The notes under the pieces are model-generated. The model was not told the DNA's origin and did not search any database. It was given only the letters and a program-made list of their open reading frames with translations. The position numbers and the translations under genes were made by a program. This document shows, one piece after another, positions 15,576 through 53,430 of a stretch of 64,000 nucleotides of DNA (its first letter is position 1; each line of letters opens with the position of its first letter). The DNA is taken from positions 279,577,242-279,641,241 of the forward strand of contig OY294067.1 in NCBI GenBank assembly GCA_958510875.1, given 5' to 3'. The DNA comes from Endomychus coccineus (taxonomy: Eukaryota > Arthropoda > Insecta > Coleoptera > Endomychidae).

Positions 15576-15577
15576 TA

Positions 15578-23398: not shown

Positions 23399-23707
23399 TA
23401 TAATAATAATAGATCGGTGTACTTGGTCTAAGGCATTTATTTAGATGTTCTTAGTATCATCGTTCCAATTCAACTACTCTTTACATATATTCATACATTT
23501 ACCTAATGTTCGATCGGTGCAGCGTCAGCTGGTCAATGTCCGTTGACCATCAGGTCGACGATCGATGCATATGCTTAGTCAATGATAGTTGCTTAATTGT
23601 AACCTTTTTTTAGTTCATATAGTTCATAGGACCTGTTGGCACAACAAGTGTCTAAATACCATCTATGACTTAAATAAGAGTTCCTAACTAATAACAGCCT
23701 CATTACA
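23399..23707 (-). repeat. 3' LTR of the gypsy element
   Basis: 309 bp; on the element strand it begins TGTAATGAGG and ends in a TATTATTATTATA run. It differs from the 5' LTR by two substitutions (near 23410, and in the T7 run near 23608 where the other copy has TTTATTT). It contains AATAAA-type sequence near its end on the minus strand. A polypurine-like stretch (cggaggtg on the minus strand) adjoins it at 23708-23716. Confidence 0.95.
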
Positions 23708-23771
23708 CCTCCGGGGTGCAAGGAAAAAAAAAATATTTTTTTTTTGTACTTCTAAAACTATGGTTAATTGC

Positions 23772-27548: not shown

Positions 27549-28680
27549 GACTGAGTCTGTTTCCCCTGTTATTATTTTGATAAGTATTGTTAGTTATGAA
27601 ATTTCTATTTCTATTAAAATTTGTTTGAGGTTTTCCCCTATGTATGTTATTTTGGTGACCCCTATTTGAATTAAATCTACCTCTAGAATTATTATTGAAA
27701 TATCTACTCTTAACATTACTTTGCGCTCTGTCAGCATACATGACTACATGATTCGATCTCTGATTAGACAGAATCAGGGCGTTTTCTTCATTAGCCGAAC
27801 TAATCGCATCCGTTATCGTTTGTAAATTCTTGCTTTTCATGGTCACCCTCAACTCTGGGTCACGAATTCCGTTTGCAAAAACATTTATTGCTGTCTTTTC
27901 GTTTGCTTCCATGAATATTTCCAATTTGGCTGCGTCACCTTCTGCTTGGGCAATTGTTAACTCAGACATTAATGTACAAATTTTTTCGCCAAAGTCGTTC
28001 AAAGAGAGATTGCCTTGCTTCATCGCGAAAAGTTTTGTAGAGATAACATTCGCACTTTGTTTTGTTGAAAATTTACTTTCCAAATCACTGATCAGTTCTG
28101 CCAATGTGTTATAATTTCTTTTCATTCGGGCGCTGTCCCTGGTTGACAAACAACTGTTCAAAACATAATTAACTATATGTCTCTTACCGGCTTGGTTAAG
28201 ACTGGGCTCGTATACATTTATACCCCTAATTAAACTTTTAACTGATTCCTGATTCGTGGTTTTTGGAAGCACAGTAGCTGCTATTTTGAAGTCAAAATCT
28301 GCCATATTATCTAATTTTTGTGATTTATCTATGCTTTCGATACTATTACTTGTTTGATCGCTCTTTACATAAGATATTCCGATAGTTTCTTTCCTAATTC
28401 TTAATATTCCTTTACACTCACTTATTATTGAATTTATATCATGAAATATATTGATTATCAACCTTTCTGTGTCTTTTTTGATACCATGAACTATTACATC
28501 TTTTTCATATTGAGTGTACAACTCGTTACATTTATTTTCAATTGAATTAACATCTATAAACTTACGTTCTACTACTCCAATGTCATTCCTTTTCTCTTGA
28601 TTGTCTTTTAGTAGGTTTGTTTTTATGTTTTTGATTTTTATGCACGCGACACTTAACTCATCACTCAACTTTTTGAACAT
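27454..28680 (-). CDS. gag: Gag polyprotein of the gypsy element
   Basis: Structural protein forming the particle that packages element RNA. The first ATG is at 28680 (the frame is open one GTG codon further); about 408 residues. The centre (residues ~150-300, with IRGINVYEPSL...HIVNYVL, LESKFSTKQSANVI and ELRVTMKSKN) is like the Gag of insect errantivirus-type gypsy elements. The C-terminal ~80 residues are rich in R, G and N (RGRFNSNRGHQNN..., NRNRNF), suiting RNA binding. There is no CCHC zinc knuckle, as in several insect gypsy lineages. The 3' end overlaps pol, which is read in the +1 frame. Confidence 0.9.
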   Translation of the reverse strand: MFKKLSDELSVACIKIKNIKTNLLKDNQEKRNDIGVVERKFIDVNSIENKCNELYTQYEKDVIVHGIKKDTERLIINIFHDINSIISECKGILRIRKETIGISYVKSDQTSNSIESIDKSQKLDNMADFDFKIAATVLPKTTNQESVKSLIRGINVYEPSLNQAGKRHIVNYVLNSCLSTRDSARMKRNYNTLAELISDLESKFSTKQSANVISTKLFAMKQGNLSLNDFGEKICTLMSELTIAQAEGDAAKLEIFMEANEKTAINVFANGIRDPELRVTMKSKNLQTITDAISSANEENALILSNQRSNHVVMYADRAQSNVKSRYFNNNSRGRFNSNRGHQNNIHRGKPQTNFNRNRNFITNNTYQNNNRGNRLSRGTGNGSRRVYVAGEQQYAENGDEFFRDQRN

Positions 28681-28683
28681 CAC

Positions 28684-28840
28684 TTAAATCACTGCATTGT
28701 TTTGGTGGTTGTTGAACGCTGCTGTGGCTGACGAGGTGGATCCGTCGCTGATGGGTTTAGGTAATGTCGTCATCTCGTTATTTCATTTTTGATCCAGTAA
28801 TGATCTCGACTTCCGCAACTCCTGCATCTCGATTTCTCGA
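28684..28840 (-). other. Leader between small ORF and gag
   Basis: Untranslated part of the gypsy leader, probably with packaging signals. Nothing specific is recognised. Confidence 0.4.
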
Positions 28841-29038
28841 TTAACCGATGCACGCCACTTGTTGCCATTTGTTATAGATGTATAACACGATTACCAACAA
28901 AATTATAGCCAAAATTGACACCGTCATCCATTCGTTTCTTGAAAATGAAGATGTGTTTTCCTGATTGGCGTTGTTTGATCCAGTTCCTGCTACAAGAATC
29001 TCGATGTTCTCTCGATTATTATACCTCGAACCGCACAT
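28841..29038 (-). CDS. Small leader ORF with one transmembrane segment (gypsy element)
   Basis: A 65-codon ORF with an ATG at 29038, lying between the 5' LTR and gag. The N-terminal ~37 residues are polar (N, S, E rich); then comes a ~20-residue hydrophobic span, WMTVSILAIILLVIVLYIY, followed by a short NKWQQVACIG tail. This predicts a small single-pass membrane protein, N-terminus outside or lumenal by the tail's charge only weakly. Standard Ty3/gypsy elements do not have such a product. The frame is open for 14 more codons upstream, to 29080, without an ATG. It might be chance, a translation-control uORF, or an accessory protein. Confidence 0.5.
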   Translation of the reverse strand: MCGSRYNNRENIEILVAGTGSNNANQENTSSFSRNEWMTVSILAIILLVIVLYIYNKWQQVACIG

Positions 29039-29117
29039 TATGATTCCAATTTTGGAGTTTCCGATTTTTGACAATTTCACTATTTTCCGTTCGCAGTTGG
29101 CATTTTTAAAAGTGCCT

Positions 29118-29132
29118 CTGGCAGGATCGCCA
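29118..29132 (-). promoter_or_regulatory. Primer-binding site, tRNA-Arg type
   Basis: The plus strand here reads ctggcaggatcgcca, identical to the last bases of an insect tRNA-Arg (as I recall the tRNA-Arg-ACG 3' end) plus the added CCA. It begins directly at the LTR boundary, as expected for minus-strand priming. Confidence 0.75.
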
Positions 29133-29441
29133 TATAATAATAAAAGATCGGTGTACTTGGTCTAAGGCATTTATTTAGATGTTCTTAGTATCATCGTTCC
29201 AATTCAACTACTCTTTACATATATTCATACATTTACCTAATGTTCGATCGGTGCAGCGTCAGCTGGTCAATGTCCGTTGACCATCAGGTCGACGATCGAT
29301 GCATATGCTTAGTCAATGATAGTTGCTTAATTGTAACCTTTATTTAGTTCATATAGTTCATAGGACCTGTTGGCACAACAAGTGTCTAAATACCATCTAT
29401 GACTTAAATAAGAGTTCCTAACTAATAACAGCCTCATTACA
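29133..29441 (-). repeat. 5' LTR of the gypsy element
   Basis: 309 bp, about 99% identical to the 3' LTR. On the minus strand it would carry the promoter; TATTTAAG lies ~30 bp into it. It is followed by the primer-binding site at 29118-29132. Confidence 0.95.
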
Positions 29442-34142: not shown

Positions 34143-35030
34143 TTAATTCATACTGGGTCAAGAATCTTTATTATTATTTTTACCATCATAGTTAGTACAT
34201 TTATATCCAACTTTTTTAAGCATTTCTCTGAGGTTTGCGCAATGTATGGTAATGTTATAAAGTTATCTCTATTACCGTTAATATTATTTATATATGCCGT
34301 ACCATTATATATTTTGATTTTTCTTTCTTTAATGATGGGGTTGAAAAATGTTTACTTGGTATCACGAACAATTTCCAAATTTCTGGAACGGTTCTCTTGT
34401 TGATATCGTTCTTTAGTAAACCACGATGTTTCCTATTTTTCCAAGTGAATCGTGCCTAATGTTGATATATAGGAAATTTATATTTTTGTTCACTTCCATT
34501 TCACAGATGAATTGAAGTTTACAGTGGAAATTGTTAAATTTATTAATTACGTACTGAATTTTATCGTTGGAAACATACATTAGGCAATCATATATTCACC
34601 GTTTGAAGAATGCGGGTTGAAAATCTAATGAATTTATTTACAGATTCCTCTAGGCATTCCATAACTAGGTCAGCAATAGTACCTGAAATAAGAGTTTCCA
34701 TTGTTGTGCCGAATATTTGTAAAAATATTGCTCACCGCACAGAAAAGAAGTACATTGTGAACTAAACTTCACAGCATTTATAAATAGAGATTGATCTGAA
34801 TGTGTGATTTTTAATCTCAAACGTTTTTTGATGCTACTCTATGCCAAAACGACTGGTATATTGGTAAATAAAGAAACAACATCCAAGGAAATTAATTGAT
34901 GATCTATGATGATCTATTAAAATGCCATGAGTCCTTCATTTAAAACTCATTTTTTCTATTAAATTGTTGATAAATTGTAAGTAGGCTCCAATATTACTCA
35001 CAATGGGTCTCAGAGGTATATCACTTTTAT
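34143..35030 (-). pseudogene. Penelope-like reverse transcriptase, 3' half
   Basis: The minus strand shows RT motifs of Penelope-like elements in order: SDIPLRPIVSNIGAYLQ (fingers), LDVVSLFTNIPV (catalytic motif A region), GTTMETLISGTIADLVMEC (motif B region), then a KNINFLYINI stretch. Stops and frame changes break it. Its 5' half lies 18 kb away at 53110-53430, because the foldback element is inserted within the codon region HKSDIP. RT for target-primed copying; inactive here. Confidence 0.85.
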
Positions 35031-35385
35031 ATTTGTGTGAAGTTATCCACGCTTCTCCAGCCACACTTTTGCCGACTCGGCTACTAGTCTCTATTGAAAC
35101 ATTGTACGTGCAGTCCAACCACCGCGCTACATACCTCTCACTCATCTCGCTCACTACGTTCATATTTAGATGGCATACATATACGTACGTCCGATACTCA
35201 TTTTATACCAATTGTAATAATATCTACTCGTTTATTTAGTTATGTCTCCTTTCTAATCGAACATATAATGATATTATTGGAATATAATGCATTGCCTATT
35301 GTCGTACTGTGTTGTTCGTTTGAAATTTGAAACATATACAGGATAATTCAACGTATAGGTTCAAAAGAGTACAAAATTTCCTAAC
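35031..35385 (+). repeat. Unique outer end of the left arm
   Basis: About 350 bp, inverted at 52760-53109 with a few mismatches. It contains ttgaacctatacgttgaatt-type sequence (complement) just before the tandem array. Short ORFs here have no known motif. It likely includes transposase binding sites, by analogy with Mutator-like ends. Confidence 0.85.
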
Positions 35386-38300
35386 AGAAATTTCATACAC
35401 TTAACTATTTAAGTGAAGTATGGATGGTTCGTCACTGCCAGGCAATCAATTCTCCTACACCAATGACTTCCCTATGGAAAGGTACATTAGCCCACAAACT
35501 ATAATGAGCAAAAATTACAGTGGGAAAAAGTTGCAGCGATACAAACAAAAAATGTCATAATAGAAATTTCATACATTCAACTATTCGAACGGAGTGTGGA
35601 CGGTATGCTACGGCCAGGCAATCAACCTCTCTCACACCAATGTCTTCCCCATGTAAGAGTGCATTAGCTGACAAATTCTTATGAGCCAGAATTATGGTGG
35701 AAAAAAGTTGCAGCGATACAAACAAAAAATTTTATAATAGAAATTTCATACATTCAACTTTTAAAGGGAGTGTGGACAGTATGCTACGGCCAGGCAATCA
35801 ACCTCTCTCACACCAATGTCTTTCCCATGTAAGAGTGCATTAGCTGACGTATTCTTATGAGCAAGAATTATAGTGGGAAAAAGTTGCAGCGATACAAACA
35901 AAAAATGTCATAATAGAAATTTCATACATTCAACTATTCAAACGGAGTGTGGACGGTATGCTACGGCCAGGCAATCAACCTCTCTCACACCAATGTCTTC
36001 CCCATGTAAGAGTGCATTAGCTGACAAATTCTAATGAGCAAGAATTATGGTGGGAAAAAGTTGCAGCGATACAAAAAAAAATTTCGTAACAGAAATTTCA
36101 TACATTCAACTATTAAATGGAGTGTGGACGGTATGCTACGGCCAGGCAATCAACCTCTCTCACACCAATGTCTTCCCCATGTAAGAGTGCATCAGCTGAC
36201 AAATTCTAATGAGCAAGAATTATAGTGGGAAAAAGTTGCAGCGATACAAAAAAAAATTTCGTAAAAGAAATTTGATACATTCAACTATTCAAATGGAGTG
36301 TGGATGGTATGCTACGGCCAGGCAATCAATCTCTCTCACACCAACTTCTTCCCGATATAAAGTTGCATTAGCTGACAAATTCTCATGAGCAAGAATTATA
36401 GTGGAAAAAAGTTGCAGCGATACAAACAAAAAATGTCATAATAGAAATTTCATACATTCAACTATTCAGATGTAGTGTGGATGATTCGCTACGGCCAGGC
36501 AATCGACTTTTCCTCACCAATGTTCTCCTTATGAAAAGGTGCATCAGCCGAAAACTTCTAATGAGCAAGAATTATAGTGGGAAAAAGTTGCAGCGATACA
36601 AACAAAAAATGTCATAATAGAAATTTCATACATTCAACTATTCGAACGGAGTGTGGACGGTATGCTACGGCCAGGCAATCAACCTCTCTCACACCAACTT
36701 CTTCCCCATATAAAGTTGCATTAGCTGACAAATTCTTATGAGCAAGAATTATAGTGGAAAAAAGTTGCAGCGATACAAACAAAAAATGTCATAATAGAAA
36801 TTTCATACATTCAACTATTCAGCTGGAGTGTGGATGATTCGCTACAGCCAGGCAATCGACTTTTCCTACACCAATGTCTTCCTTATGAAATGGTGCATCA
36901 GCCGAAAACTTCTAATGAGCAAGAATTATAGTGGGAAAAAGTTGCAGCGATACAAACAAAAAATGTCATAATAGAAATTTCATACATTCAACTATTCAGC
37001 TGGAGTGTGGATGATTCGCTACAGCCAGGCAATCGACTTTTCCTACACCAATGTCTTCCTTATGGAATGGTGCATCAGCCGAAAACTAATGAGCAAGAAT
37101 TATAGTGGGAAAAAGTTGCAGCGATACAAACAAAAAATTTCATAACAGAAATTTCATACATTCAACTATTAAATGGAGTGTGGACGGTATGCTACGGCCA
37201 GGCAATCAACCCATCTCACACCAAAGTCTTCCCCACGTGAGAGTGCATTAGCTGACAAATTCTCATGAGCAAGAATTATGGTGGAAAAAAGTTGCAGCGA
37301 TACAAACAAAAAATTTCATAACAGAAATTTCATACATTCAACTATTAAATGGAGTGTGGACGGTATGCTACGGCCAGGCAATCAACCTCTCTCACACCAA
37401 TGTCTTCCCCACGTAAGAGTGCATTAGCGGACAAATTCTTATGAGCAAGAATTATAGTGGAAAAAGTTGCAGCGATACAAACAAAAAATTTCATAACAGA
37501 AATTTCATACATTCAACTATTAAATGGAGTGTGGACGGTATGCTACGGCCAGGCAATCAACCCCTCTCACACCAATGTCTTCCCCACGTAAGGGTGCATT
37601 AGCTGACAAATTCTCATGAGCAAGAATTATGGTGGAAAAAAGTTGCAGCGATACAAACAAAAAATTTCATAACAGAAATTTCATACATTCAACTATTAAA
37701 TGGAGTGTGGACGGTATGCTACGGCCAGGCAATCAACCTCTCTCACACCAATGTCTTCCCCACGTAAGAGTGCATTAGCGGACAAATTCTTATGAGCAAG
37801 AATTATAGTGGAAAAAGTTGCAGCGATACAAACAAAAAATTTCATAACAGAAATTTCATACATTCAACTATTAAATGGAGTGTGGACGGTATGCTACGGC
37901 CAGGCAATCAACCTCTCTCACACCAATGTCTTCCCCACGTAAGAGTGCATTAGCGGACAAATTCTTATGAGCAAGAATTATAGTGGAAAAAGTTGCAGCG
38001 ATACAAACAAAAAATTTCATAACAGAAATTTCATACATTCAACTATTAAATGGAGTGTGGACGGTATGCTACGGCCAGGCAATCAACCCCTCTCACACCA
38101 ATGTCTTCCCCACGTAAGGGTGCATTAGCTGACAAATTCTCATGAGCAAGAATTATGGTGGAAAAAAGTTGCAGCGATACAAACAAAAAATTTCATAATA
38201 GAAATTTCATACATTCAACTATTAAATGGAGTGTGGACGGTATGCTACGGCCAGGCAATCAACCTCTCTCACACCAATGTCTTCCCCATGTAAGAGTGCA

Positions 38301-41300
38301 TTAGCTGACAAATTCTTATGAGCAAGAATTATGGTGGAAAAAAGTTGCAGCGACACAAACGAAAAATTTCATAATCGAAATTTCATACATTCAACTATTA
38401 AATGAAGTGTGGACGGTATGCTACGGCCAGGCAATCAACCCCTCTTACATCAATGTCTTCCCCACGTAAGAGTGCATTAGCTGACAAATTCTTATGAGCA
38501 AGAATTATAGTGGGAAAAAGTTGCAGCGATAGAAACAAAAAATTTCATAACAGAAATTTCATACATTCAACTATTAAATGGAGTGTGGACGGTATGCTAC
38601 GGCCAGGCAATCAACCCCTCTTACACCAATGTCTTCCCCACGTAAGAGTGCATTAGCTGACGAATTCTTATGAGCAAGAATTATAGTGGGAAAAAGTTGC
38701 AGCGATACAAACAAAACATTTCATAACAGAAATTTCATACATTCAGCTATTAAATGGAGTGTGGACGGTATGCTACGGCCAGGCAATCAACCCCTCTCAC
38801 ACCAATGTCTTCCCCACGTAAGAGTGCATTAGCTGACAAATTCTCATGAGCAAGAATTATAGTGGGAAAAAGTTGCAGCGATACAAACAAAAAATGTCAT
38901 AATAGAAATTTCATACATTCAACTATTCGAACGGAGTGTGAACGGTATGCTACGGCCAGGCAATCAACCTCTCTCACACCAATCTCTTCCCCATATAAAG
39001 TTGCATTAGCTGACAAATTCTTATGAGCAAGAATTATGGTGGAAAAAAGTTGCAGCGATACAAAAAAAAATTTCATAACAGAAATTTCATACATTCAACT
39101 ATTCAAATGGAGTGTGGACGGTATGCTACGGCGAGGGAATCAATCTCTCTCACACCAACTTCTTCCCCATATAAAGTTGCATTAGCTGACAAATTCTCAT
39201 GAGCAAGAATTATAGTGGAAAAAAGTTGCAGCGATACAAACAAAAAAATGTCATATTAGAAATTTCATACATTCAACTATTCAGATGGAGTGTGGATGAT
39301 TCGCTACGGCCAGGCAATCGACTTTTCCTACACCAATGTCTTCCTTATGAAAAGGTGCATTAGCCGAAAACTTCTAATAAGCAAGAATTATAGTGGGAAA
39401 AAGTTGCAGCGATACAAACAAAAAATGTCATAATAGAAATTTCATACATTCAACTATTCGAACGGAGTGTGGACGGTATGCTACGGCCAGGCAAACAACC
39501 TCTCTCACACCAGTGTCTTCCCCATGTAAGAGAGCATTAGCTGACAAATTCTTATGAGCAAGAATTATGGTGGAAAAAAGTTGCAGCGATACAAACAAAA
39601 AATTTTTTAATAGAAATTTCATACATTCAACTATTAAATGGAGTGTGGACGGTATGCTACGGCTAGGCAATCAACCCCTCTCACACCAATGTCTTCCCCA
39701 TGTAAGAGTGCATTAGCTGACAAATTCTAATGAGCAAGAATTATAGTGGGAAAAAGTTGCAGCGATACAAACAAAAAATTTCATAACAGAAATTTCATAC
39801 ATTCAACTATTCGAACGAAGTGAGGACGGTATGCTACGGCCAGGCAATCAACCTCTCTCACACCAATGTCTTCCCCATGTAAGAGTGCATTAGCTGACAA
39901 ATTCTTATGAGCAAGAATTATAGTGGGAAAAAGTTGCAGCGATACAAACAAAAAATTTCATAACAGAAATTTCATACATTCAACTATTAAATGGAGTGTG
40001 GACGGTATGCTACGGCCAGGCAATCAACCCCTCTCACACCAATGTCTTCCCCACGTAAGAGTGCATCAGCTGACAAATTCTTATGAGCAAGAATTATAGT
40101 GGGAAAAAGTTGCAGCGATACAAACAAAAAATTTCATAACAGAAATTTCATACATTCACCTATTAAATGGTGTGTGGACGGTATGCTACGGCCAGGCAAT
40201 CAACCCTTCTCACACCAATGTCTTCCCCACGTAAGAGTGCATTAGCTGACAAATTCTAATGAGCAAGAATTATAGGGGGAAAAAGTTGCAGCGATACAAA
40301 AAAAAATTTCGTAACAGAAATTTCATACATTCAACTATTCAAATGGAGTGTGGACGGTATGCTACGGCCAGGCAATCAATCTCTCTCACACCAATGTCTT
40401 TCCCATGTAAGAGTGCATTAGCTGACAAATTCTAATGAGCAAGAATTATAGTGAGAAAAAGTTGCAGCGATACAAAAAAAAATTTCGTAACAGAAATTTC
40501 ATACATTCAACTATTCAAATGGAGTGTGGACGGTATGCTACGGCCAGGCAATCAATCTCTCTCACACCAACTTCTTCCCCATATAAAGTTGCATTAGCTG
40601 ACAAATTCTCATGAGCAAGAATTATAGTGTAAAAAAATTGCAAAGATACAAACAAAAAATGTCATAATAGAAATTTCATACATTCAACTATTCAGATGTA
40701 GTGTGGATGATTCGCTACGGCCAGGCAATCGACTTTTCCTACACCAATGTCTTCCTTATGAAAAGGTGCATCTGCCGAAAACTTCTAATGAGCAAGAATT
40801 ATAGTGGGAAAAAGTTGCAGCGATACAAACAAAAAATGTCATAATAGAAATTTCATACATTCAACTATTCGAACGGAGTGTGGACGGTATGCTACGGCCA
40901 GGCAATCAACCTCTCTCACACCAATGTCTTCCCCATGTAAGAGAGCATTAGCTGACAAATTCTTATGAGCAAGAATTATGTTGGAAAAAAGTTGCAGTGA
41001 AACAAACAAAAAATTTCATAATAGAAATTTCATACATTCAACTATTAAATGGAGTGTGGACGGTATGCTACGGCCAGGCAATCAACCTCTCTCACCCCAA
41101 TGTCTCCCCCATGTAAGAGTGCATTAGCTGACAAATTCTAATGAGCAAGAATTATAGTGGGAAAAAGTTGCAGCGATACAAACAAAAAATTTCATAACAG
41201 AAATTTCATACTTTCAACTATTCGAACGGAGTGAGGACGGTATGCTACGGCCAGGCAATCAACCTCTCTCACACCAATGTCTTCCCCATGTAAGAGTGCA

Positions 41301-41548
41301 TCAGCTGACAAATTCTTATGAGCAAGAATTATGGTGGAAAAAAGTTGCAGCGATACAAACAAAAAATTTCATAATAGAAATTTCATACATTCAACTATTA
41401 GATGGAGTGTGGACGATATGCTACGGCCAGGCAATCAACCCCTCTCACACCAATGTCTTCCCCACGTAAGAGTGCATTAGCTGACAAATTCTTATGAGCA
41501 AGAATTATAGTGGGAAAAAGTTGCAGCGATACAAACAAAAAATTTCAA
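35386..41548 (+). repeat. Left tandem array, ~35 units of ~176 bp
   Basis: Unit starts measured at the word atgagcaag (36034, 36209, 36385, 36561, 36738) give a 175-177 bp period. Each unit contains, in order, aatttcatacattcaacta, tgctacggccaggcaatc, a ctctcacaccaatgtcttc block, gtgcattagctgacaaatt, and atgagcaagaattat followed by aaaagttgcagcgatac. At least two unit types alternate (tatgctacggcc with ctctcac, versus ttcgctacggcc with ttttccta). Runs such as 37270-38150 show near-identical higher-order blocks, pointing to recent unequal exchange or conversion. Confidence 0.95.
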
Positions 41549-41772
41549 AAAATCTTTCGCAAATGTTGGAAGAAAATATCAATGTTGATTTAAACCTTAA
41601 GTATCAATCGGAAGATAAAAGCAAAAGTCACTTGCTTGAAACTTCCAAGAATATTGATCCCACGCCCAGTTCCGAAGATGTATCTCATACAATTCTTCAC
41701 TTAGCTGATCAAAAATCAAAAATAGATATAACTTTGCCTCTTAATTCCAAGAATGAAACGCCCCAACTATAA
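41494..41772 (+). CDS. N-terminal ORF of the foldback element gene
   Basis: A 92-codon ORF whose ATG and first ~16 codons (MSKNYSGKKLQRYKQK) are the end of the last tandem unit; the rest is unique. The N-terminus is strongly basic and the remainder polar and acidic, like a flexible linker. It ends in a C4 run and overlaps the next frame (41753) by 20 nt. Removing one C (41761-41764) would carry the frame into the transposase ORF, so it is probably the true N-terminus of the long protein, either frameshifted by mutation or assembly error, or a separate small protein. Confidence 0.6.
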   Translation: MSKNYSGKKLQRYKQKISKNLSQMLEENINVDLNLKYQSEDKSKSHLLETSKNIDPTPSSEDVSHTILHLADQKSKIDITLPLNSKNETPQL

Positions 41773-44326
41773 AAGTTGTAAAATCACTGAAGGAATCTTC
41801 TCTCTTTGTAAAGAGGAGCTTGACGCAATTTTTTCCCAAAAAGGACAACTTAAGAGAGGACACTACCCTTACATCCTACGCAAAAAGATTACCGCAATCA
41901 ACAATACTTGTATAATCAATTTTAAGCAAATCCGTTTTTTAAAGCGAGCAGATGCTATAAAACTATATGCATATTGCGCGTTTAACTGTAAGTGTTTTAT
42001 TATTTTATTAAAAAATATCTCTATTGTTAGAAAAAAACTGGCAAATATCAAGCCTTTTGAGCATAGACAAAAATGCATCAAAAATCTTCCTGATTCTATG
42101 GCATTGAGAGGTAATTTAGGTGATGTGAAGTCTGAACATGTTATTCGAAAAATAAGATCAGAAAAATTGTCTCTCTTGGATACACATTCGGATGATTTTA
42201 TAGATATGGTATTGTTACATCGTCGAAATAATCTCGAATATATTCAAAGTGTTGGTGAGCCCTTTTTTGTTCACATTTATAGTACTCAACAGTTAGACAT
42301 CTTGTGCCATGAAAGTACCCATGAATTACCAATTCTTTTCTTAGACGCCACAGGATCCATTATTCGTAAACCTCCTTCTACTAAAAAAAGAGTATACTAT
42401 TATGCTGGCGTTATTAGGTTGGCCCAAAATAATCGTGTATGTCCAATTATGGAAATGATTTCAGCAACTCACGATGGTGGTTCAATTGGCATGTGGTTAG
42501 GTAAATTTAAAATGTATTCCTTACAGCATTTAAAAAAATGGCCAGTATTTTCACGCGTGGTAACTGACTTTAGCTATGCATTCATTAATGCAATATGTAT
42601 GTTTTGGAACAACACAACTCTTATAAATTATCTGAATTCAACTTTTGATGAAATATATAAAGGTAAACATTTTGAAAGATGTGATTTAGTTATTCCACAC
42701 ATATGTTGCTGTCATTTTTTCAAAATAATTGCGGTCGATGTAAATAAGTGTTTTAGCAATGGCACTAATGGAGTTATTAAGGAAATTATGAGTGCTGTGT
42801 TCAATTTTAATGACATACATCTAGTTGAAATGTGGTTCAAACATATTTGTGTACTACTGAATCATCCGAAATATAATTGTTCAGTTCAATCGTCTTTAAA
42901 CCAACTGCTCAGTATTTGTCTGAAAGAAGATGCATTATCTTCATTACAAAACCCCGATTTAATTTTAAACACCGACACCACTTATACTTCAGATGTACAT
43001 TACTCACTGAATAAATCTAGTCCTTTCTATAAACATTTCTTGAATATTTTTAATCAGATGGAGTTTAAGTCCAGTGCAAGTAATTCAAAAATCAATCCCT
43101 ATTTTAGCCCGGATTTTCACAAATTACTCATTGAAAAATATATTCCGCTTTTACCGCTTTGGTCTGGTATTCTGTTGAATAAAGAACGATTGAGTAATGC
43201 TCCTATAGAAAGATGGTTTGGCATCACCAAAAATAGTGTGTTGTGTGGAGAAAAACATCAAAAGTGTAGTCGAGTCATTCGTAAAATAAGATCCCATGTA
43301 GTCAGTATTCATAAAGAAATGTCTTTGAAAATAATGAAAAGTAGGTGTGCTACAAATGCAATGTCGAAAGATTTGTCGAAAAAAGAAGGAATATTGTCTT
43401 CTGAACAATGGAACAAAAAAAAAGAGGCTCCCATTAGTTATTTCAAGAAGAGCAGAATGGAGGGCTTGATGTCTTTGAAAAAACTATTTCAAAATTTAAT
43501 TGAATTAAATTCATCCGATGATGATTTACTGCGATGCATCTACTGTTTTAGAGGTAAACTGGACGTTACTGAAGATTGGGTTCAGTGTGATGAGTGCCGT
43601 GGATGGATACATCAAGTATGCATTTGTGATTTAACAAAAAGTTATACAGACACCTTTATTTGCAAATATTGTGATTTAAATGATTGTTCTGATTTGAAAT
43701 GTCCAAAGCCAACCATTCAGAACCCCAAGTACGAATTAGGCGATTTGTGTCAAAATTACATAAATCAAAACTTTAATTTAAATTCACGTAACTTACAGGT
43801 AATTAACGATGGCACAATTAATCAAAGACAATCCGAAGCATGGTATCAAGTGAGATCCAAAAGACTAACAGCATCACAATTTGGAAATTTGTGTAAATCA
43901 AATTCAGACCTTAGTTTACAAACAAAAGTAAAACGAATGCTCTATAATAAAGACACGTTACATAATATTGAATCTGTCAAGAACGGCATTGAAAATGAAG
44001 AAAAAGCTCTTCAAAAATATATAGAACTTAATCCATCATGCAATGTTCAACGAAGTGGACTGTGGATATATCCTCAATTACAATATTTAGCATGTTCGCC
44101 GGATGGAATGATTGATACAGAAGGACTATTGGAAATAAAATGTCCATACAGTATCCAAGAGCTAGATCCTTTACAAGCCATTCGTGAGGGAAAATTGAAA
44201 TATTTTAAAAGGGATGGATATTTCAAAGCAGCACATCAATACAACTATCAAATTCAAGGACAGTTAGCTATCACTGGTAGAAAATGGTGTGATTTAGTTG
44301 TATATACGAAAAGGGGGATACATTAA
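41753..44326 (+). CDS. MULE-type transposase with PHD finger and YqaJ nuclease domain
   Basis: An 857-codon ORF. After a basic N-terminal region with a C-x4-C-x-C stretch (~75), a MULE-like DDE core follows: PILFLDATGS (D ~198), YYYAGVIRL, the second acid in VVTDFSYAFINAI (~272), then an HICCCHFFK block in the place of the family's C-x-FH. NAPIERWFGITK closes it (~485). A PHD finger spans ~594-641 (C-x2-C, WVQCDECRGWIHQVC, FICKYC). A YqaJ/lambda-exonuclease-type domain starts at ~690 (EAWYQVRSKRLTASQFG, GIENEEKA, SPDG, LEIKCP, QIQGQLAIT), with all its usual acid/K residues. The frame shifts at an A4G5 run (44310-44318) inside YqaJ, so the next ORF belongs to it. Confidence 0.85.
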   Translation: MKRPNYKSCKITEGIFSLCKEELDAIFSQKGQLKRGHYPYILRKKITAINNTCIINFKQIRFLKRADAIKLYAYCAFNCKCFIILLKNISIVRKKLANIKPFEHRQKCIKNLPDSMALRGNLGDVKSEHVIRKIRSEKLSLLDTHSDDFIDMVLLHRRNNLEYIQSVGEPFFVHIYSTQQLDILCHESTHELPILFLDATGSIIRKPPSTKKRVYYYAGVIRLAQNNRVCPIMEMISATHDGGSIGMWLGKFKMYSLQHLKKWPVFSRVVTDFSYAFINAICMFWNNTTLINYLNSTFDEIYKGKHFERCDLVIPHICCCHFFKIIAVDVNKCFSNGTNGVIKEIMSAVFNFNDIHLVEMWFKHICVLLNHPKYNCSVQSSLNQLLSICLKEDALSSLQNPDLILNTDTTYTSDVHYSLNKSSPFYKHFLNIFNQMEFKSSASNSKINPYFSPDFHKLLIEKYIPLLPLWSGILLNKERLSNAPIERWFGITKNSVLCGEKHQKCSRVIRKIRSHVVSIHKEMSLKIMKSRCATNAMSKDLSKKEGILSSEQWNKKKEAPISYFKKSRMEGLMSLKKLFQNLIELNSSDDDLLRCIYCFRGKLDVTEDWVQCDECRGWIHQVCICDLTKSYTDTFICKYCDLNDCSDLKCPKPTIQNPKYELGDLCQNYINQNFNLNSRNLQVINDGTINQRQSEAWYQVRSKRLTASQFGNLCKSNSDLSLQTKVKRMLYNKDTLHNIESVKNGIENEEKALQKYIELNPSCNVQRSGLWIYPQLQYLACSPDGMIDTEGLLEIKCPYSIQELDPLQAIREGKLKYFKRDGYFKAAHQYNYQIQGQLAITGRKWCDLVVYTKRGIH

Positions 44327-45335
44327 AAGGATACTGCCTGATAAAATGCTTTGGGATACTATTATCTTGCCTAAACTTAAAGAAATTTTCCCATTCTATG
44401 TATTGCCTGAGCTAGTTGATCCTAAAGAATCTTGCGGAAGGAGATGGTGGTCGTCAGTAAAAACAAATCAACCAGTTAATGAAAACATAAAGTCGAACAC
44501 TAAGCTCGCTTTTTTAGATAATGGGTTAGTAAATAACATAACCTATTACAAGGAAATACCAAATATAAATTATACGATTGCTATCTATGATTATATTGAA
44601 TGTTATGTTGAAGAATTAAGTTATGAAGATTACAATACATTAAATTCCAGCAATTGGTTAAATAATTTCGTAATAGATCTAATACTATCTTTAATGAACT
44701 TTGATGTCAACAACGAATATCAAATTTTTCCCTGTAATTATTCTACAACTATATTTTCTGGTAACATTAGTCTTATCAGACATGAACAAATTTTGAAAAA
44801 TTTTCTTATATGTCCACTAAATCAATCAAATAATCACTGGTGTATAGCAATTATCAATATAAAAGAAAGAACATTTTGGTATATTAATCCTATGTCAAGC
44901 AGCTCTAATGAGTCTAAAGAATATATGCAAATATTTTTAAGATATTTGCGTTCTTATAATAAATATTACAATATAACCAAAATTAACACAACTGGTTGGT
45001 CTTTGAAAAATGAGTGCCATTTGGAGCAAAAAGACTCATATAACTGTGGGTTATATATAATATATTACTTTCAACAGTTTATAAATAATGCATCACTGGG
45101 AAAATTCCAAAGCATGCTCAAGTTTAGGAAACACTTACAAGATTATTTACTAAAAAAATCGATTAAAATGAATAATAAATGCTTATTTTGTGGAATGGAG
45201 AAAGAGCGATGGGTGTATTTAACTTGTACAACATGCAAACGAATAATACATACTAAGTGCGTTGAAAAAGATTGGGAACAGAACATAGAAGAATACGATA
45301 CTTGCACTTTTTGTCTAAGTAGCCTAACTAAATAA
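44298..45335 (+). CDS. Ulp1/SENP-like cysteine protease with C-terminal zinc finger
   Basis: The open frame has no ATG at its start (TTG); it continues the YqaJ domain of the upstream ORF (KGGYIKRILPDKMLW), so it is the C-terminal part of one polyprotein. Residues ~116-270 are a C48 (Ulp1/SENP) fold: SNWLNNFVIDLIL, NNHWCIAIIN (H180), WYINPM (N197, where most have D), LEQKDSYNCGLYIIYY (Q244, C250). A C4HC3-type finger follows (~295-340: C-x2-C, C-x2-C-x4-H-x2-C, C-x2-C). Such proteases cleave ubiquitin-like conjugates; in a transposon it might process the polyprotein or remove SUMO. Confidence 0.85.
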   Translation: MYIRKGGYIKRILPDKMLWDTIILPKLKEIFPFYVLPELVDPKESCGRRWWSSVKTNQPVNENIKSNTKLAFLDNGLVNNITYYKEIPNINYTIAIYDYIECYVEELSYEDYNTLNSSNWLNNFVIDLILSLMNFDVNNEYQIFPCNYSTTIFSGNISLIRHEQILKNFLICPLNQSNNHWCIAIINIKERTFWYINPMSSSSNESKEYMQIFLRYLRSYNKYYNITKINTTGWSLKNECHLEQKDSYNCGLYIIYYFQQFINNASLGKFQSMLKFRKHLQDYLLKKSIKMNNKCLFCGMEKERWVYLTCTTCKRIIHTKCVEKDWEQNIEEYDTCTFCLSSLTK

Positions 45336-45351
45336 TAGCAACAATATACTA

Positions 45352-46694
45352 TAGTCCAGTGGAGGAAGCCCAAAATCGAGATAACTGAAGAATTTTTTTT
45401 CTCATGGACCGGTTTTGACTTGTGAGAGCGCATTCCATTCGTCTTGACACCTACATCAAAGCTTACCACTTTTGGTCCTCGACACATTGTTTATTTTGTT
45501 AATAAACAATAAATAATGACAAAACATGTTTTAGCGCTATTTTCCTTTGATTTTAACCAGTAAATGTATTTTTTATTTTTATTTCACCAATAAATAGTGT
45601 TCATTCAATGTTTATAAGAATGTGCTAATTGACTATTTGTTAATAAACAATGTCTTACTTTACTAATTAACAAATGAATAAAAATTTTCTAAATATTCGA
45701 TATTAAAGTCATTTTCGGATAATTGGGACCTGCTAAACATGAATTTGATGTCCATTATTCAATAAATTGCTAATATAATTCGTTAATAAACAATTTCTTA
45801 TTTAATCAATGAACGAAAAAATAAAAGTTTTCTAAATGTTCGACATTAGAGTCATATTCATATGCTAAACATGATTTTGATGTCTATTTATAATTAGTTG
45901 CTGATATGCATTGTATGTAGAACTGTTCGAATAATTGTAGAAAAAATAATCTTCAAGAAGGGAATGATGACGAATGTGATGATAATATGATTGAAAATGA
46001 AGATGACACCGGTGCAGATATTTGTACACCAGGTTGTAATAATGATGATAATAATGGAGATGACAATGCTGAAAATTATGATAATTATGATAATATTGAA
46101 TAATGTATATATAATGATTTAAAATTTTGTCTTACTTAAATAAAACTAATCTAAATATAATTTCAAATGTTTTTTTTTATTTATTCCAGATTCGAACCTT
46201 TCCTTGGTATGAAAGAACATTTATTCAGTTCCACATTATCCGAGATAAACTCCTAAGGTCGAATATTAAGGAAATTTTATTTTTTTGTTCATTGGTTAAC
46301 TGAGAAACTGTTCATTAACTAATTGAATGATGGACATCATATTCATATTTAGCAGGTCCAAATTATCCGAAAATGACTCTAATGACGAATATTTGGAAAA
46401 TGTTTATATTGTTTGTTGATTAAATAACTAAGAAGTTATTTATCAATAAACAGTCAATGGAAATATTATTATAAACATTGAATAAGCACGGTTTATCGGT
46501 CAAATAAATGAGAAATACACTTTACCTGATTAAAATCAATGGAAAATAGCGTAGTTAAAAATTTTTTTGCAGATACTTATTGCTTATTAAGGAAATAAAC
46601 AATTTCTCAAAGACCAAAAGTGGTAAGATTTGATCTAGATGTCAAGACGAATCTGATGAGCGCTCACAGATCAAGTCCCCCGTTTACTGGACTA
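45352..46694. mobile_element. Nested 1.34-kb inverted-repeat element
   Basis: It starts TAGTCCAGT and ends ACTGGACTA. Arms of ~400 bp match in inverted order (e.g. taccacttttggtc near 45462 against gaccaaaagtggta near 46610; ggacctgctaaa near 45726 against tttagcaggtcc near 46349). It lies 16 bp after the protease stop. No clear target duplication was seen. The centre holds an acidic mini-ORF and a polyadenylation signal. Confidence 0.75.
45921..46103 (+). CDS. Acidic 60-codon open frame, possible last exon
   Basis: The frame runs from 45921 to a TAA at 46103. The residues are mostly D, E and N with five Cys (NCSNNC..., DDECDD, TPGCNNDDNN). It has no ATG at its start but is preceded by tgtatgtag, a plausible 3' splice acceptor. 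AATAAA follows at 46139-46144. It may be a terminal exon captured by, or native to, the nested inverted-repeat element. Function unknown. Confidence 0.3.
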   Translation, partial: NCSNNCRKNNLQEGNDDECDDNMIENEDDTGADICTPGCNNDDNNGDDNAENYDNYDNIE

Positions 46695-46737
46695 CTCATT
46701 ATAATGTCGTCACTCTTGAGTATTTTTCGGTTTTAGA

Positions 46738-49700
46738 AACTGCCTGGCCGTAGCGTCCTTTGAACAATTGAATGCATTGAATTTTTCTTCTACACTAATT
46801 CGTGCTCATGAGAATTTGTCCACTAATGCACCATTTTCTTGGGGTGACATTCGTGTAGGAGAAGTTGATTGCCTGGCCGTAGCGAACCATCCACACTCCA
46901 TTCGAATAGTTGAATGTATGAAATTTCTGCTATGAAATTTTTTGTTTGTATCGCTGCAACTTTTTTCCACTATAATTCTTGCTCATGAGAATATGTCAGC
47001 TAATGCACTCTTACATGGGGAAGACATTGGTGTGAGAGAGATCGATTGCCTGGCCGTAGCATATCGTCCACACTCCATTTGAATAGTTGAATGTATGAAA
47101 TTTCTGTTACGAAATTTTTTTTTGTATCGCTGCAACTTTTTCCCACTATGATTCTTGCTCATTAGAATTTGTCAGCTAATGCTCTCTTACATGGGGAAGA
47201 CATTGATTTGAGAGAGGTTGATTGCCTGGCCGTAGCATACCGTCCACACTCCGTTCGAATAGTTGAATGTATGAAATTTCTATTATGACATTTTTTGTTT
47301 GTATCGCTGCAACTTTTTCCCACTATAATTCTTGCTCATTAGAAGTTTTCGGCTGATGCACCTTTTCATAAGGAAGACATTGGTGTAGGAAAAGTCGATT
47401 GCCTGGCCGTAGCGAATCATCCACACTCCATCTGAATAGTTGAATGTATGAAATTTCTATTATGACATTTTTTGTTTGTATCGCTGCAACTTTTTTCCAC
47501 TATAATTCTTGCTCATGAGAATTTGTCAGCTAATGCAACTTTATATGGAGAAGAAGTTGGTGTGAGAGAGATTGATTGCCTGGCCGTAGCATACCGTCCA
47601 CACTCCATTTGAATAGTTGAATGTATGAAATTTCTGTTACGAAATTTTTTTTTGTATCGCTGCAACTTTTCCCACTATAATTCTTGCTCATTAGAATTTG
47701 TCAGCTAATGCACTCTTACATGGGGAAGACATTGGTGTGAGAGAGATCGATTGCCTGGCCGTAGCATATCGTCCACACTCCATTTGAATAGTTGAATGTA
47801 TGAAATTTCTGTTACGAAATTTTTTTTTGTATCGCTGCAACTTTTTCCCACTATAATTCTTGCTCATTAGAATTTGTCAGCTAATGCACTCTTACGTGAG
47901 GAAGACATTGGTGTGAGAGGGGTTGATTGCCTGGCCGTAGCATACCGTCCACACTCCATTTAATAGTTGAATGTATGAAATTTCTGTTATGAAATTTTTT
48001 GTTTGTATCGCTGCAACTTTTTCCCACTATAATTCTTGCTCATAAGAATTTGTCAGCTGATGCACTCTTACGTGGGGAAGACATTGGTGTGAGAGAGGTT
48101 GATTGCCTGGCCGTAGCATACCGTCCACACTCCATTTAATAGTTGAATGTATGAAATTTCTGTTATGAAATTTTTTGTTTGTATCGCTGCAACTTTTTCC
48201 CACTATAATCCTTGCTCATAAGAATTTGTCAGCTAATGCACTCTTACATGGAGAGGACATTGGTGTGTGAGAGGTTGATTGCCTGGCCGTAGCATACCGT
48301 CCTCACTCCGTTCGAATAGTTGAATGTATGAAATTTCTATTATGACATTTTTTGTTTGTATCGCTGCAACTTTTTCCCACTATAATTCTTGCTCATTAGA
48401 ATTTGTCAGCTAATGCACTCTTACATGGGGAAGACATTGGTGTGAGAGGGGTTGATTGCCTGGCCGTAGCATACCGTCCACACTCCGTTCGAATAGTTGA
48501 ATGTATGAAATTTCTATTATGACATTTTTTGTTTGTATCGCTGCAACTTTTTCCCACTATAATTCTTGCTCATTAGAATTTGTCAGCTAATGCACTCTTA
48601 CGTGAGGAAGACATTGGTGTGAGAGGGGTTGATTGCCTGGCCGTAGCATACCGTCCACACTCCATTTAATAGTTGAATGTATGAAATTTCTGTTATGAAA
48701 TTTTTTGTTTGTATCGCTGCAACTTTTTCCCACTATAATTCTTGCTCATAAGAATTTGTCAGCTGATGCACTCTTACGTGGAGAAGACATTGGTGTGAGA
48801 GAGGTTGATTGCCTGGCCGTAGCATACCGTCCACACTCCATTTAATAGTTGAATGTATGAAATTTCTGTTATGAAATTTTTTGTTTGTATCGCTGCAACT
48901 TTTTCCCACTATAATCCTTGCTCATTAGAATTTGTCAGCTAATGCACTCTTACATGGAGAGGACATTGGTGTGTGAGAGGTTGATTGCCTGGCCGTAGCA
49001 TACCGTCCACACTCCATTTAATAGTTGATTGTATGAAATTTCTGTTATGAAATTTTTTGTTTGTATCGCTGCAACTTTTTTCCACTATAATCCTTGCTCA
49101 TAAGAATTTGGCAGCTATCACACTCTTACGTGGGGAAGACAATGGTGTGAGAGGGGTTGATTGCCTGGCCGTAGCATACCGTCCACACTCCATTTAATAG
49201 TTGAATGTATGAAATTTCTATTATGAAATTTTTTGTTTGTATCGCTGCAACTTTTTTCCACCATAATTCTTGCTCATAAGGATTTGTCAGCTCATGCACA
49301 CTTACGTGGGGAAGACATTGGTGTGAGAGGGGTTGATTGCCTGGCCGTAGCATACCGTCCACACTCCATTTGATAGTTGAATGTATGAAATTTCTATTAT
49401 GAAATTTTTTGTTTGTATCGCTGCAACTTTTCTCCACCATAATTCTTGCTCATAAGAATTTGTCAGCTAATGCACTCTTACATGGGGAAGACATTGGTGT
49501 GAGAGGGGTTGATTGCCTGGCCGTAGCATACCGTCCTCACTCCGTTCGAATAGTTGAATGTATGAAATTTCTGTTATGAAATTTTCTGTTTGTATCGCTG
49601 CAACTTTTTCCCACTATAATTCTTGCTCATTAGAATTTGTCAGCTAATGCACTCTTACATGGGGAAGACATTGGTGTGAGAGGGGTTGATTGCCTGGCCG

Positions 49701-52700
49701 TAGCATACCGTCCACACTCCGTTCGAATAGTTAAATGTATGAAATTTCTATTATGACATTTGTTGTTTGTATCGCTGCAACTTTTTTCCACTATAATTCT
49801 TGCTCATTAGAAGTTTTCGGCTGATGCACCATTTCATAAGGAAGACATTGGTGTAGGGAGAGTCGATTACGTGGCCGTAGCGAATCATCCACACTCCATC
49901 TGAATAGTTGAATGTATGGAATTTCTATCATGACATTTTTTGTTTGTATCGCTGCAACTTTTTTCCGCTATAATTATTGCTCATAAGAATTTGTCAGCTA
50001 ATGCACTCTTACATGGGGAAGACATTGGTGTGAGAGGGGTTGATTGCCTGGCCGTAGCATACCGTCCTCACTCCGTTCGAATAGTTGAATGTATGAAATT
50101 TCTGTTATGAAATTTTTTGTTTGTATCGCTGCAACTTTTTCCCACTATAATTCTTGCTCATTAGAATTTGTCAGCTAATGCTCTCTTACATGGGGAAGAC
50201 ATTGGTGTGAGAGGGGTTGATTGCCTGGCCGTAGCATACCGTCCTCACTCCGTTCGAATAGTTGAATGTATGAAATTTCTGTTATGAAATTTTTTGTTTG
50301 TATCGCTGCAACTTTTTCCCACTATAATTCTTGCTCATTAGAATTTGTCAGCTAATGCTCTCTTACATGGGGAAGACATTGGTGTGAGAGGGGTTGATTG
50401 CCTGGCCGTAGCATACCGTCCTCACTCCGTTCGAATAGTTGAATGTATGAAATTTCTGTTATGAAATTTTTTGTTTGTATCGCTGCAACTTTTTCCCACT
50501 ATAATTCTTGCTCATTAGAATTTGTCAGCTAATGCACTCTTACATGGGGAAGACATTGTTGTGAGAGGGGTTGATTGCCTGGCCGTAGCATACCGTCCTC
50601 ACTCCGTTCGAATAGTTGAATGTATGAAATTTCTGTTATGAAATTTTTTGTTTGTATCGCTGCAACTTTTTCCCACTATATGTCTTGCTCATTAGAATTT
50701 GTCAGCTAATGCTCTCTTACATGGGGAAGACATTGGTGTGAGAGAGGTTGATTGCCTGGCCGTAGCATACCGTCCACACTCCGTTCGAAAAGTTGAATGT
50801 ATGAAATTTCTATTATGACATTTGTTGTTTGTATCGCTGCAACTTTTTTCCACTATAATTCTTGCTCATAAGAATTTGTCAGCTAATGCTCTCTTACATG
50901 GGGAAGACATTGGTGTGAGAGAGGTTGATTTCCAGGCCGTAGCATACCGTCCACACTCCGTTCGAATAGTTGAATGTATGAAATTTCTATTATGACATTT
51001 GTTGTTTGTATCGCTGCAACTTTTTTCCACTATAATTCTTGCTCATTAGAAGTTTTCGGCTGATGCACCATTTCATAAGGAAGACATTGGTGTAGGGAGA
51101 GTCGATTACGTGGCCGTAGCGAATCATCCACACTCCATCTGAATAGTTGAATGTATGAAATTTCTATTATGACATTTTTTGTTTGTATCGCTGCAACTTT
51201 TTTCCGCTATAATTCTTGCTCATAAGAATTTGTCAGCTAACGCAACTTTATATGGGGAAGAAGTTGATGTGAGAGAGGTTGATTGCCTGGCCGTAGCATA
51301 CCGTCCACACTCCATCTGAATAGTTGAATGTATGAAATTTCTATTATGACATTTTTTGTTTGTATCGCTGCAACTTTTTTCACTATAATTCTTGCTCATA
51401 AGAATTTGTCAGCTAATGCAACTTTACATGGGGAAGGAGTTGATGTGAGAGAGGTTGATTGCCTGGCCGTAGCATACCGTCCACACTCCGTTCGAATAGT
51501 TGAATGTATGAAATTTCTATTATGACATTTTTTGTTTGTATCGCTGCAACTTTTTCCCACTATAATTCTTGCTCATTAGAAGTTTTCGGCTGATGCACCT
51601 TTTCATAAGGAAGACATTGGTGAGGAAAAGTCGATTGCCTGGCCGTAGCGAATCATCCACACTCCATCTGAATAGTTGAATGTATGAAATTTCTATTATG
51701 ACATTTTTTGTTTGTATCGCTGCAACTTTTTTCCACTATAATTCTTGCTCATGAGAATTTGTCAGCTAATGCAACTTTATATCGGGAAGAAGTTGGTGTG
51801 AGAGAGATTGATTGCCTGGTCGTAGCATACCGTCCACACTCCATTTGAATAGTTGAATGTATGAAATTTCTATTATGACATTTTTTGTTTGTATCGCTGC
51901 AACTTTTTTTCACTATAATTCTTGCTCATAAGAATTTGTCAGCTAATGCAACTTTACATGGGGAAGGAGTTGGTGTGAGAGAGGTTGATTGCCTGGCCGT
52001 AGCATACCGTCCACACTCCGTTCGAATAGTTGAATGTATGTAATTTCTATTATGACATTTTTTGTTTGTATCGCTGCAACTTTTTCCCACTATAATTCTT
52101 GCTCATTAGAAGTTTTCGGCTGATGCACCTTTTCATAAGGAAGACATTGGTGAGGAAAAGTCGATTGCCTGGCCGTAGCGAATCATCCACACTCCATCTG
52201 AATAGTTGAATGTATGAAATTTCTATTATGAAATTTTTTGTTTGTATCGCTGCAACTTTTTTCCACCATAATTTTTGCTCATAAGAATTTGTCAGCTAAT
52301 GCACTCTTACGTGGGGAAGACATTGGTGTGAGAAGGGTTGATTGCCTGGCCATAGCATACCGTCCACACACCATTTAATAGGTGAATGTATGAAATTTCT
52401 GTTATGAAATTTTTTGTTTGTATCGCTGCAACTTTTTCTCACTATAATTCTTGCTCATAAGAATTTGTCAGCTGATGCACTCTTACGTGGGGAAGACATT
52501 GGTGTGAGAGGGGTTGATTGCCTGGCCATAGCATACCGTCCACACACCATTTAATAGGTGAATGTATGAAATTTCTGTTATGAAATTTTTTGTTTGTATC
52601 GCTGCAACTTTTTCTCACTCTAATTCTTGCTCATAAGAATTTGTCAGCTGATGCACTCTTACGTGGGGAAGACATTGGTGTGAGAGGGGTTGATTGCCTG

Positions 52701-52760
52701 GCCGTAGCATACCGTCCACACTCCATTTAATAGTTGAATGTATGAAATTTCTGTTATGAA
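46738..52760 (-). repeat. Right tandem array, ~34 units of ~176 bp
   Basis: Inverted counterpart of the left array: the same units on the minus strand (gattgcctggccgtagc, gttgaatgtatgaaatttc, gtatcgctgcaactttt, gctcattagaatttgtcagc). The innermost unit (46738-46900) is the most diverged. Several ~350-bp higher-order blocks are nearly identical (e.g. 50100-50650). Open frames through the units (such as 49126-49440) come from the repeat. Confidence 0.95.
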
Positions 52761-53109
52761 ATTTTGTACTCTTTTGAACCTATACGTTGAATTATCCTGT
52801 ATATGTTTCAAATTTCAAACGAACAACACAGTACGACAATAGGCAATGCATTATATCCCAATAATATCATTATATGTTCGATTAGAAAGGAGAAATAACT
52901 AAATAAACGAGTAGATATTATTACAATTGGTATAAAATGAATATCGGACGTACGTATATGTATGCCATCTAAATATGAACGTATAGTGAGCGAGATGAGT
53001 GAGAGGTATTTAGGGCGGTGGTTGGACTGCACGTACAATGTTTCAATAGAGACTAGTAGCCGAGTCGGCAAAAGTGTGGCTGGAAAAGCGTGGATAACTT
53101 CACACAAAT
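52761..53109 (-). repeat. Unique outer end of the right arm
   Basis: Inverted match of 35031-35385, ending CTTCACACAAAT at the 9-bp target duplication. A few substitutions and small gaps separate the two ends. Confidence 0.85.
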
Positions 53110-53430
53110 CACTTTTATGCAGTTTCAGAAGTCCATAAGATATAAGGTGCTTACTACCAATTAGAGCAAATTAATTTATTCTTCAAGTCAATAGGGATTA
53201 TCATGTTTTTGTACTGTTATTTATTAATTTATTCATATCATTATGTATCGATAATGTAGAGTCAGATTTTAATCTAATAGATATCCTATCTCTATGCATA
53301 ATGACAGTTTTATTACATTTATCCGCGTCCAAAACTAATATTTGAGGGTTAGCATCTAAGAACTCTTTTGTCTTTTTTGTGTGATAGTTAAAACGATTTT
53401 TCGCTATGCTTATTTCTGCTTTCTGTTGTT
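53110..53430 (-). pseudogene. Penelope-like reverse transcriptase, 5' half
   Basis: The minus strand reads FLDANPQILVLDADKCNKTVI, then MHRDRISIRLKSD, with the RT N-terminal pattern of Penelope-like proteins (NPQIL-DADKGNKTVIM). It ends at the 9-bp target duplication with GLLKLHK, which continues as SDIPLRPIVSN in the half at 34143-35030. Stops near 53190-53210 show it was already decayed, or decayed afterwards. Confidence 0.8.

Follow-up and report, generated by a model that had tools for sequence, protein, structure and literature searches.

Transposons of the Rehavkus kind are Mutator-related elements that duplicate 9 bp of their target, encode a PHD finger and carry a minisatellite ahead of the 3' terminal inverted repeat (TIR) (PMC6446971; this and the other papers cited here are drawn on in excerpt). 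Rehavkus-1_TC of Tribolium castaneum, described in a Repbase report of 2006 that is cited in PMC10218199, is 9.5 kb long, and its inverted termini contain repeats of 164 bp, for the most part 5 and 8 monomers (PMC10218199). In a survey of 4268 genomes, arthropod Mutator-like elements (MULEs) measured 1.4–10.0 kb and Rehavkus was the outgroup (PMC13359780). An element of 18,079 bp was characterized in a stretch of 64,000 nucleotides from Endomychus coccineus (contig OY294067.1, positions 279,577,242 to 279,641,241 of the forward strand), here called the window. The element, at window positions 35031–53109, is very probably a decayed copy of a Mutator-related DNA transposon of the Rehavkus kind, one that moves by cut and paste with a DDE transposase.

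The element is flanked on both sides by CACTTTTAT (35022–35030 and 53110–53118), which occurs nowhere else in the window; a pair of 9-mers drawn from it at random is identical with a frequency of 8.5e-5. Its outer TIRs, the left beginning ATTTGTGTGAAG (35031–35372, plus strand) and the right at 52766–53109 (minus strand), are identical at 336 of 342 aligned bases, with an additional 2-base gap. Inside them, phase counting gave 35 tandem units in the left arm (35373–41547, plus strand) and 34 inverted units in the right arm (46796–52765, minus strand), all of 176–177 bp, and the two arms align at 92.8% over ~6.3 kb. The ends, inverted termini, 9-bp duplication, arm length and unit size given by an earlier sequence-only reading of the window were all confirmed on re-measurement. 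Inverted arrays of such length are a well-known source of assembly errors, and the arms might be ascribed to misassembled or palindromic long reads. Such an artefact is barely credible, however, since the arms are ~7% different, arm lengths are unequal in another copy, and many loci spread over several chromosome-sized contigs show the pattern together with exact duplications.

Between the arms lies a gene in two frames. ORF1 (41732–44326, plus strand; 864 codons, or the 857 residues of the sequence-only reading when counted from the first Met) encodes a partly deleted zinc-binding region, a DDE catalytic core, a PHD-like finger and a YqaJ nuclease. The core residues are D205 (42344), D279 (42566), C325xxH328 (42704–42715) and E493 (43208), and D, D, H and E are invariant in an alignment of 19 sequences. 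A CxxH between the second D and the E of a DDE core is a signature of the Mutator/IS256 superfamily. The PHD-like finger (residues 602–647; 43535–43672, plus strand) matched PHD_5 at E 8.4e-4 and PHD at E 0.022, and the YqaJ/lambda-exonuclease-type domain (residues 704–850; 43841–44281, plus strand) matched Pfam at E 1.7e-17 and 3syy at E 2.5e-10. ORF2 (44298–45335, plus strand; 345 codons) continues the same gene in a different frame with a Ulp1 (C48) protease domain (44628–45158, plus strand) and a C-terminal zinc finger. The protease has H, N, Q and C at its catalytic motifs, the N standing where Asp is usual. The domain order of the protein is DDE transposase, PHD finger, YqaJ/lambda-type exonuclease, Ulp1-type protease and zinc finger. 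A nested element of 1339 bp (45354–46692) lies between the gene and the right arm.

Three protein searches (E≤0.001; E≤0.01 in the third) yielded relatives P0001–P0041. In P0001–P0003 alignment gave the same order of DDE, PHD, YqaJ, Ulp1-like region and zinc finger, and YqaJ was present in seven relatives of 1388–1526 residues (P0001–P0003 and P0020–P0023), with C48 among the precomputed domains of P0020–P0022. When 28 members, several of them fragments, were scanned at E≤0.001, C48 was found in 14, PHD in 11, YqaJ in seven, and UCH and OTU in one each. Most matches are nameless; the hosts that are named are the beetles Ceutorhynchus assimilis, Psylliodes chrysocephalus, Phaedon cochleariae, Pyrocoelia pectoralis and Holotrichia oblita. 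More distant named matches came from the psyllid Cyamophila and from the rotifers Brachionus and Rotaria. Arthropods or annelids are the hosts expected of Rehavkus. A search of viral contigs gave one match, confined to the YqaJ part. Among distant relatives, P0013 carries C48 (two such regions by eye), P0014 and P0015 an OTU domain (the latter by its given name), and P0019 and P0040 a ubiquitin hydrolase domain. From these domain matches, ubiquitin/SUMO proteases appear to be repeatedly associated with distant relatives of the transposase.

The sequence-only reading had described a TIR transposon of foldback structure, flanked by 9-bp duplications and provided with a transposase gene of its own that is still nearly complete. 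All of this held except the completeness of the gene, whose 5' part is missing and whose frame is broken twice. Aligned to P0001 and numbered by it, the product has lost some 190 residues at its N-terminus and another ~32 from the zinc-binding region that precedes the DDE core; the frame shifts near 41.75 kb and near 44.3 kb. A frame of 92 codons (41494–41772, plus strand) leads out of the last left unit into what is left of the transposase N-terminal linker, recognizable by its LPLNSKNE motif. Another copy in the genome, C3:85994752-86014956 (20,205 bp), is 99.3% identical to the window element over 4,753 bp of core, the nested 1339-bp element included. There too the gene is broken, into open frames of 900 and 643 codons, but an N-terminal part is present between array and linker. 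For this reason the window copy appears to derive from a fuller element by an internal deletion, which seems to have fused the last left unit to the linker. The ATG present in each 176-bp unit was considered as the transposase start and rejected, because the C3:86.0-Mb gene has an N-terminal region of its own in this place. With its 5' part gone and its frame broken, the window copy would move only with help in trans.

The 9-bp duplications, the PHD finger of the transposase and tandem repeats adjoining the TIRs are all features described for Rehavkus. The arrays of 176 bp, and those of a 146-bp subfamily described below, adjoin the TIRs on both sides. The PHD match of P0001 passes Pfam's own cut-off, whereas both matches in the window copy, and that of the 146-bp subfamily, fall below it.

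The assignment rests on features described for Rehavkus, and several observations weigh against it. The MULE profile (PF10551), a check proposed by the sequence-only reading, was unmatched at E≤1 in the window ORFs and six relatives, and is absent from the families matched by the 28 scanned members at E≤0.001. In an alignment of 37 sequences that includes fragments and distant members, the first D alone is invariant; conservation is 90% for the second D and for the H, and the E is missing from the list. Pfam C48 had no match at E≤1 in P0001–P0003, and three of 29 element pairs in the genome lack a target duplication.

Foldseek gave a single match in the PDB at E≤0.001, the P element, a further point against the assignment. 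A foldback element related to P or hAT, similar to Galileo, is nevertheless very improbable. Target duplications of P and hAT elements are usually 8 bp, whereas 24 of the 29 pairs carry 9-bp duplications, and the PHD finger and satellite match the description of Rehavkus.

Inverted tandem-repeat arms and 9-bp duplications are likewise found in FB/NOF elements of Drosophila, to which the sequence-only reading had likened the element. The arms of FB/NOF are shorter than those seen here. The FB-like structure stands, and FB/NOF may be regarded as a good structural analogy; the nearest described kind, however, is Rehavkus. That the element is a true member of the Drosophila foldback lineage, merely larger, is unlikely in spite of the shared arms and duplications. 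The PHD finger and satellite fit the description of Rehavkus better, and NOF or Drosophila names were absent from the matches of the protein searches, a weak point since most matches are nameless and the searches need shared 5-residue words.

Resemblance to FB does not imply kinship, since foldback structure has been reported in unrelated lineages. Tetris/DAIBAM of Drosophila virilis is a foldback element whose TIR tandem repeats seed satellite DNA, but no transposase gene was found in Tetris and its duplications are of 8–10 bp (PMC4079207). Tm1 of root-knot nematodes (Phantom/Mutator) has composite TIRs of variable length, a commonest duplication of 9 bp and a Mutator-type transposase; that transposase is of the Phantom type, and the excerpts of the paper do not mention a PHD-YqaJ-Ulp1 fusion (PMC3169594). 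Phantom MULEs are marked by an N-terminal FLYWCH finger; scans of whole proteins, with that domain not searched by itself, gave no FLYWCH match at E≤1, and several strands are predicted in a CxxxxC region. Galileo, of the P superfamily, has variable numbers of TIR tandem repeats, but its transposase is of the P type and the longest TIRs in the excerpts, of ~1.26 kb, occur only in copies without a transposase ORF (PMC3573991).

Further copies were sought in the 906-Mb genome, all counts being lower bounds. A search with the 342-bp end, in which 40 of 77 candidate places were scored, gave 16 facing pairs and left eight ends unpaired. A further two, at C1:51.57 and C1:127.94 Mb, were picked by eye from the first 100 of 567 matches of a 12-mer search, for which the reversed control gave 204. 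The 18 pairs of this 176-bp subfamily range from 824 to 29,009 bp. Exact 9-bp duplications flank 14 of them; two have 8/9 matching bases (29,009 bp at C2:153311200; 6,264 bp at C1:118537705), and two have none (22,959 bp at C5:78968733; 6,608 bp at C3:98607662). The sequence-only reading had proposed to examine the boundaries of other copies, and most of these bore it out: for the 176- and 146-bp subfamilies combined, 24 of 29 pairs, the window included, have exact 9-bp duplications and two have 8/9. The 12-mer places L016 and L017 gave no facing pair, and the pair L014 (C1:124736151-124738067, 1,917 bp) was dropped because its flanks are inverted, not direct, copies. L014 shares with the element just the 12-bp end ATTTGTGTGAAG and apparently belongs to a different family.

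The second subfamily is represented by C3:117495265-117517798 (22,534 bp), on both sides of which TCCGCCGTG is duplicated. Its arms hold 61.5 and 38.7 copies of a 146-bp unit, and its gene is one frame of 1456 codons without interruption (1448 residues when counted from the first Met), matching YqaJ at 1.2e-12, C48 at 1.8e-9 and PHD at 0.0018 (sub-threshold) in Pfam. A search with its 375-bp end, in which 40 of 293 candidates were scored, returned 41 rows, 13 of them identical top-score matches (its own place included). Pairing gave 11 pairs and left 19 rows unpaired; ten pairs have exact 9-bp duplications, and the remaining one, with an altered left end, has none. One interval between facing ends, C5:45259409-45307956, spans 48,548 bp with an exact 9-bp duplication, and may hold nested insertions. 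Stop-free frames at 42% identity to ORF1 comprise four of 1456 codons and others of 1439 and 1136; the four are probably near-identical, as judged from nearly equal scores and from their ends. Five copies with uninterrupted frames are 16.7–22.5 kb long. The 13 identical ends suggest that this subfamily moved recently.

A third subfamily was seen at C3:57.05 Mb, where a frame of 1540 codons is flanked on both sides by inverted arrays of a 142-bp unit, 96.5% alike over 1,215 bp; no TIR was seen in the part covered, the gene and its arrays. When the 146-, 176- and 142-bp units were compared, no shared match longer than 17 bp was found, while the first 39 bp of the 146-bp element align with the end of the window element.

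Alternatively, the arms could be satellite DNA of the host that took up a copy of a shorter transposon or that invaded one. Tandem arrays of satellite-like unit length are compatible with this, and TCsat23 of Tribolium is catalogued as a satellite (PMC10218199). A search with two units gave 330 matches, part of them listed, with 27 of 82 candidates scored. The rows listed fall at 18 sites by eye, and four of these have not yet been shown to be TIR-bounded. The other 14, however, are elements bounded by the TIR of the window element, the arrays are inverted and mirrored, and three unrelated units lie beside the same kind of gene in three subfamilies. Though stand-alone arrays may exist outside the listed sites, we consider a host origin of the arms most improbable.

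The units of the two arms of the window element correspond in mirror register. Left unit i compared with right unit i gave a mean of 0.926, against 0.904 when permuted, and one in 10,000 permutations was as high. The signal rests on blocks 25–33 and 6–8, and the mirror partner is the best right match for just seven of 34 left units. In the 146-bp subfamily the arms, taken in register from their outer ends, are 97.5% identical over ~6,050 bp, versus 94.4–95.0% in the shifted registers listed. Between the window element and the C3:86.0-Mb copy, left arms in register are 94.1% and right arms 90.7% identical, though the cores are 99.3% identical; the right-arm value is about what any two units share on average (~90%).

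Assuming a unit of 146.15 bp, the gene-to-end distances of five copies of the 146-bp subfamily differ on the 3' side by whole units to within 0.06 unit in ten of ten comparisons. On the 5' side they do so to within 0.1 unit in six of ten. Two points count against this result: all four failures involve the C6 copy on the 5' side, and the comparisons, having copies in common, are not independent of one another. Taken together, the mirror register, the low arm identity beside 99.3% identical cores and the whole-unit steps suggest that gain and loss of units outpace substitution and that units are also copied between arms.

A cut-and-paste cycle of the Rehavkus kind would account for these copies as follows. 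The transposase would bind the outer 30–40 bp, a placement based on the similarity of these bases in two subfamilies with unrelated arms, and would excise the element and insert it at 9-bp staggered cuts. The tandem arms would need no fixed length. They gain and lose whole units, which is seen as length differences between copies; the cause may be unequal exchange or single-strand annealing. The mirror pattern could likewise arise by fold-back pairing or gene conversion between the arms. A plausible role for the fused YqaJ exonuclease is to resect ends or arms when the element is excised and the DNA repaired, and one for the Ulp1 domain is to strip SUMO from chromatin or repair proteins.

The element might even build its own arms, if resection of the palindromic ends by YqaJ at excision allowed annealing and fold-back copying to generate, lengthen and homogenize the satellites. 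This idea, which is speculative and rather doubtful, is prompted by the three subfamilies with three unrelated satellites and by an array at C1:149618171-149619589 (L064–L070). There, ~5.5 tandem copies, 83% alike, of a stretch of ~262 bp match the N-terminal linker of the transposase, possibly a new array starting from the element's own coding DNA.

Compared with Rehavkus-1_TC, the two elements counted here have 34–61 units per arm in place of mostly 5 and 8 monomers, and subfamilies with unrelated units set them apart from it as described. YqaJ and Ulp1, both fused here, are not mentioned for Rehavkus in the excerpts of PMC6446971 and PMC10218199. In searches of open-licence papers we came across no transposon of insects that combines YqaJ with Ulp1 or PHD, and no description of such arm sizes, subfamily numbers or YqaJ/Ulp1 fusion. 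What we regard as new is that the arms reach tens of units, that subfamilies carry unrelated satellites, that arm lengths differ by whole units among copies, that unit order is mirrored between arms, and that a nuclease and a protease are fused to the transposase.

Other mobile elements lie nearby in the window. At 15571–17756 a transposase remnant is enclosed by inverted arms of ~0.5 kb, ~89–96% alike, forming a smaller long-TIR element; its ORF (16010–16921) matches DDE_3 at E 2.2e-4, below the Pfam cut-off, and is mariner/IS630-like. A probable Gypsy-type LTR retrotransposon occupies 23399–29432, with LTR-like direct repeats 99% alike over 300 bp, one frame that is pol-like by eye and one with a weak gag match. 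A fragment at 30021–30695 matches DUF4371 (E 2.4e-8), a domain of hAT-like transposases.

The element touches two old questions, the origin of new satellite DNA families and the way in which foldback transposons acquire and keep long inverted arms. One genome holds several subfamilies with the same transposase, unrelated satellites in the same place, and apparently recent copies that differ by whole units. With such subfamilies coexisting, apparently recent copies at hand and an exonuclease and a SUMO-type protease built into the transposase, arm growth can be traced from one copy to the next and the enzyme is open to experiment. If the element does build its own arms, this would be a transposon lineage that makes new satellite DNA enzymatically.
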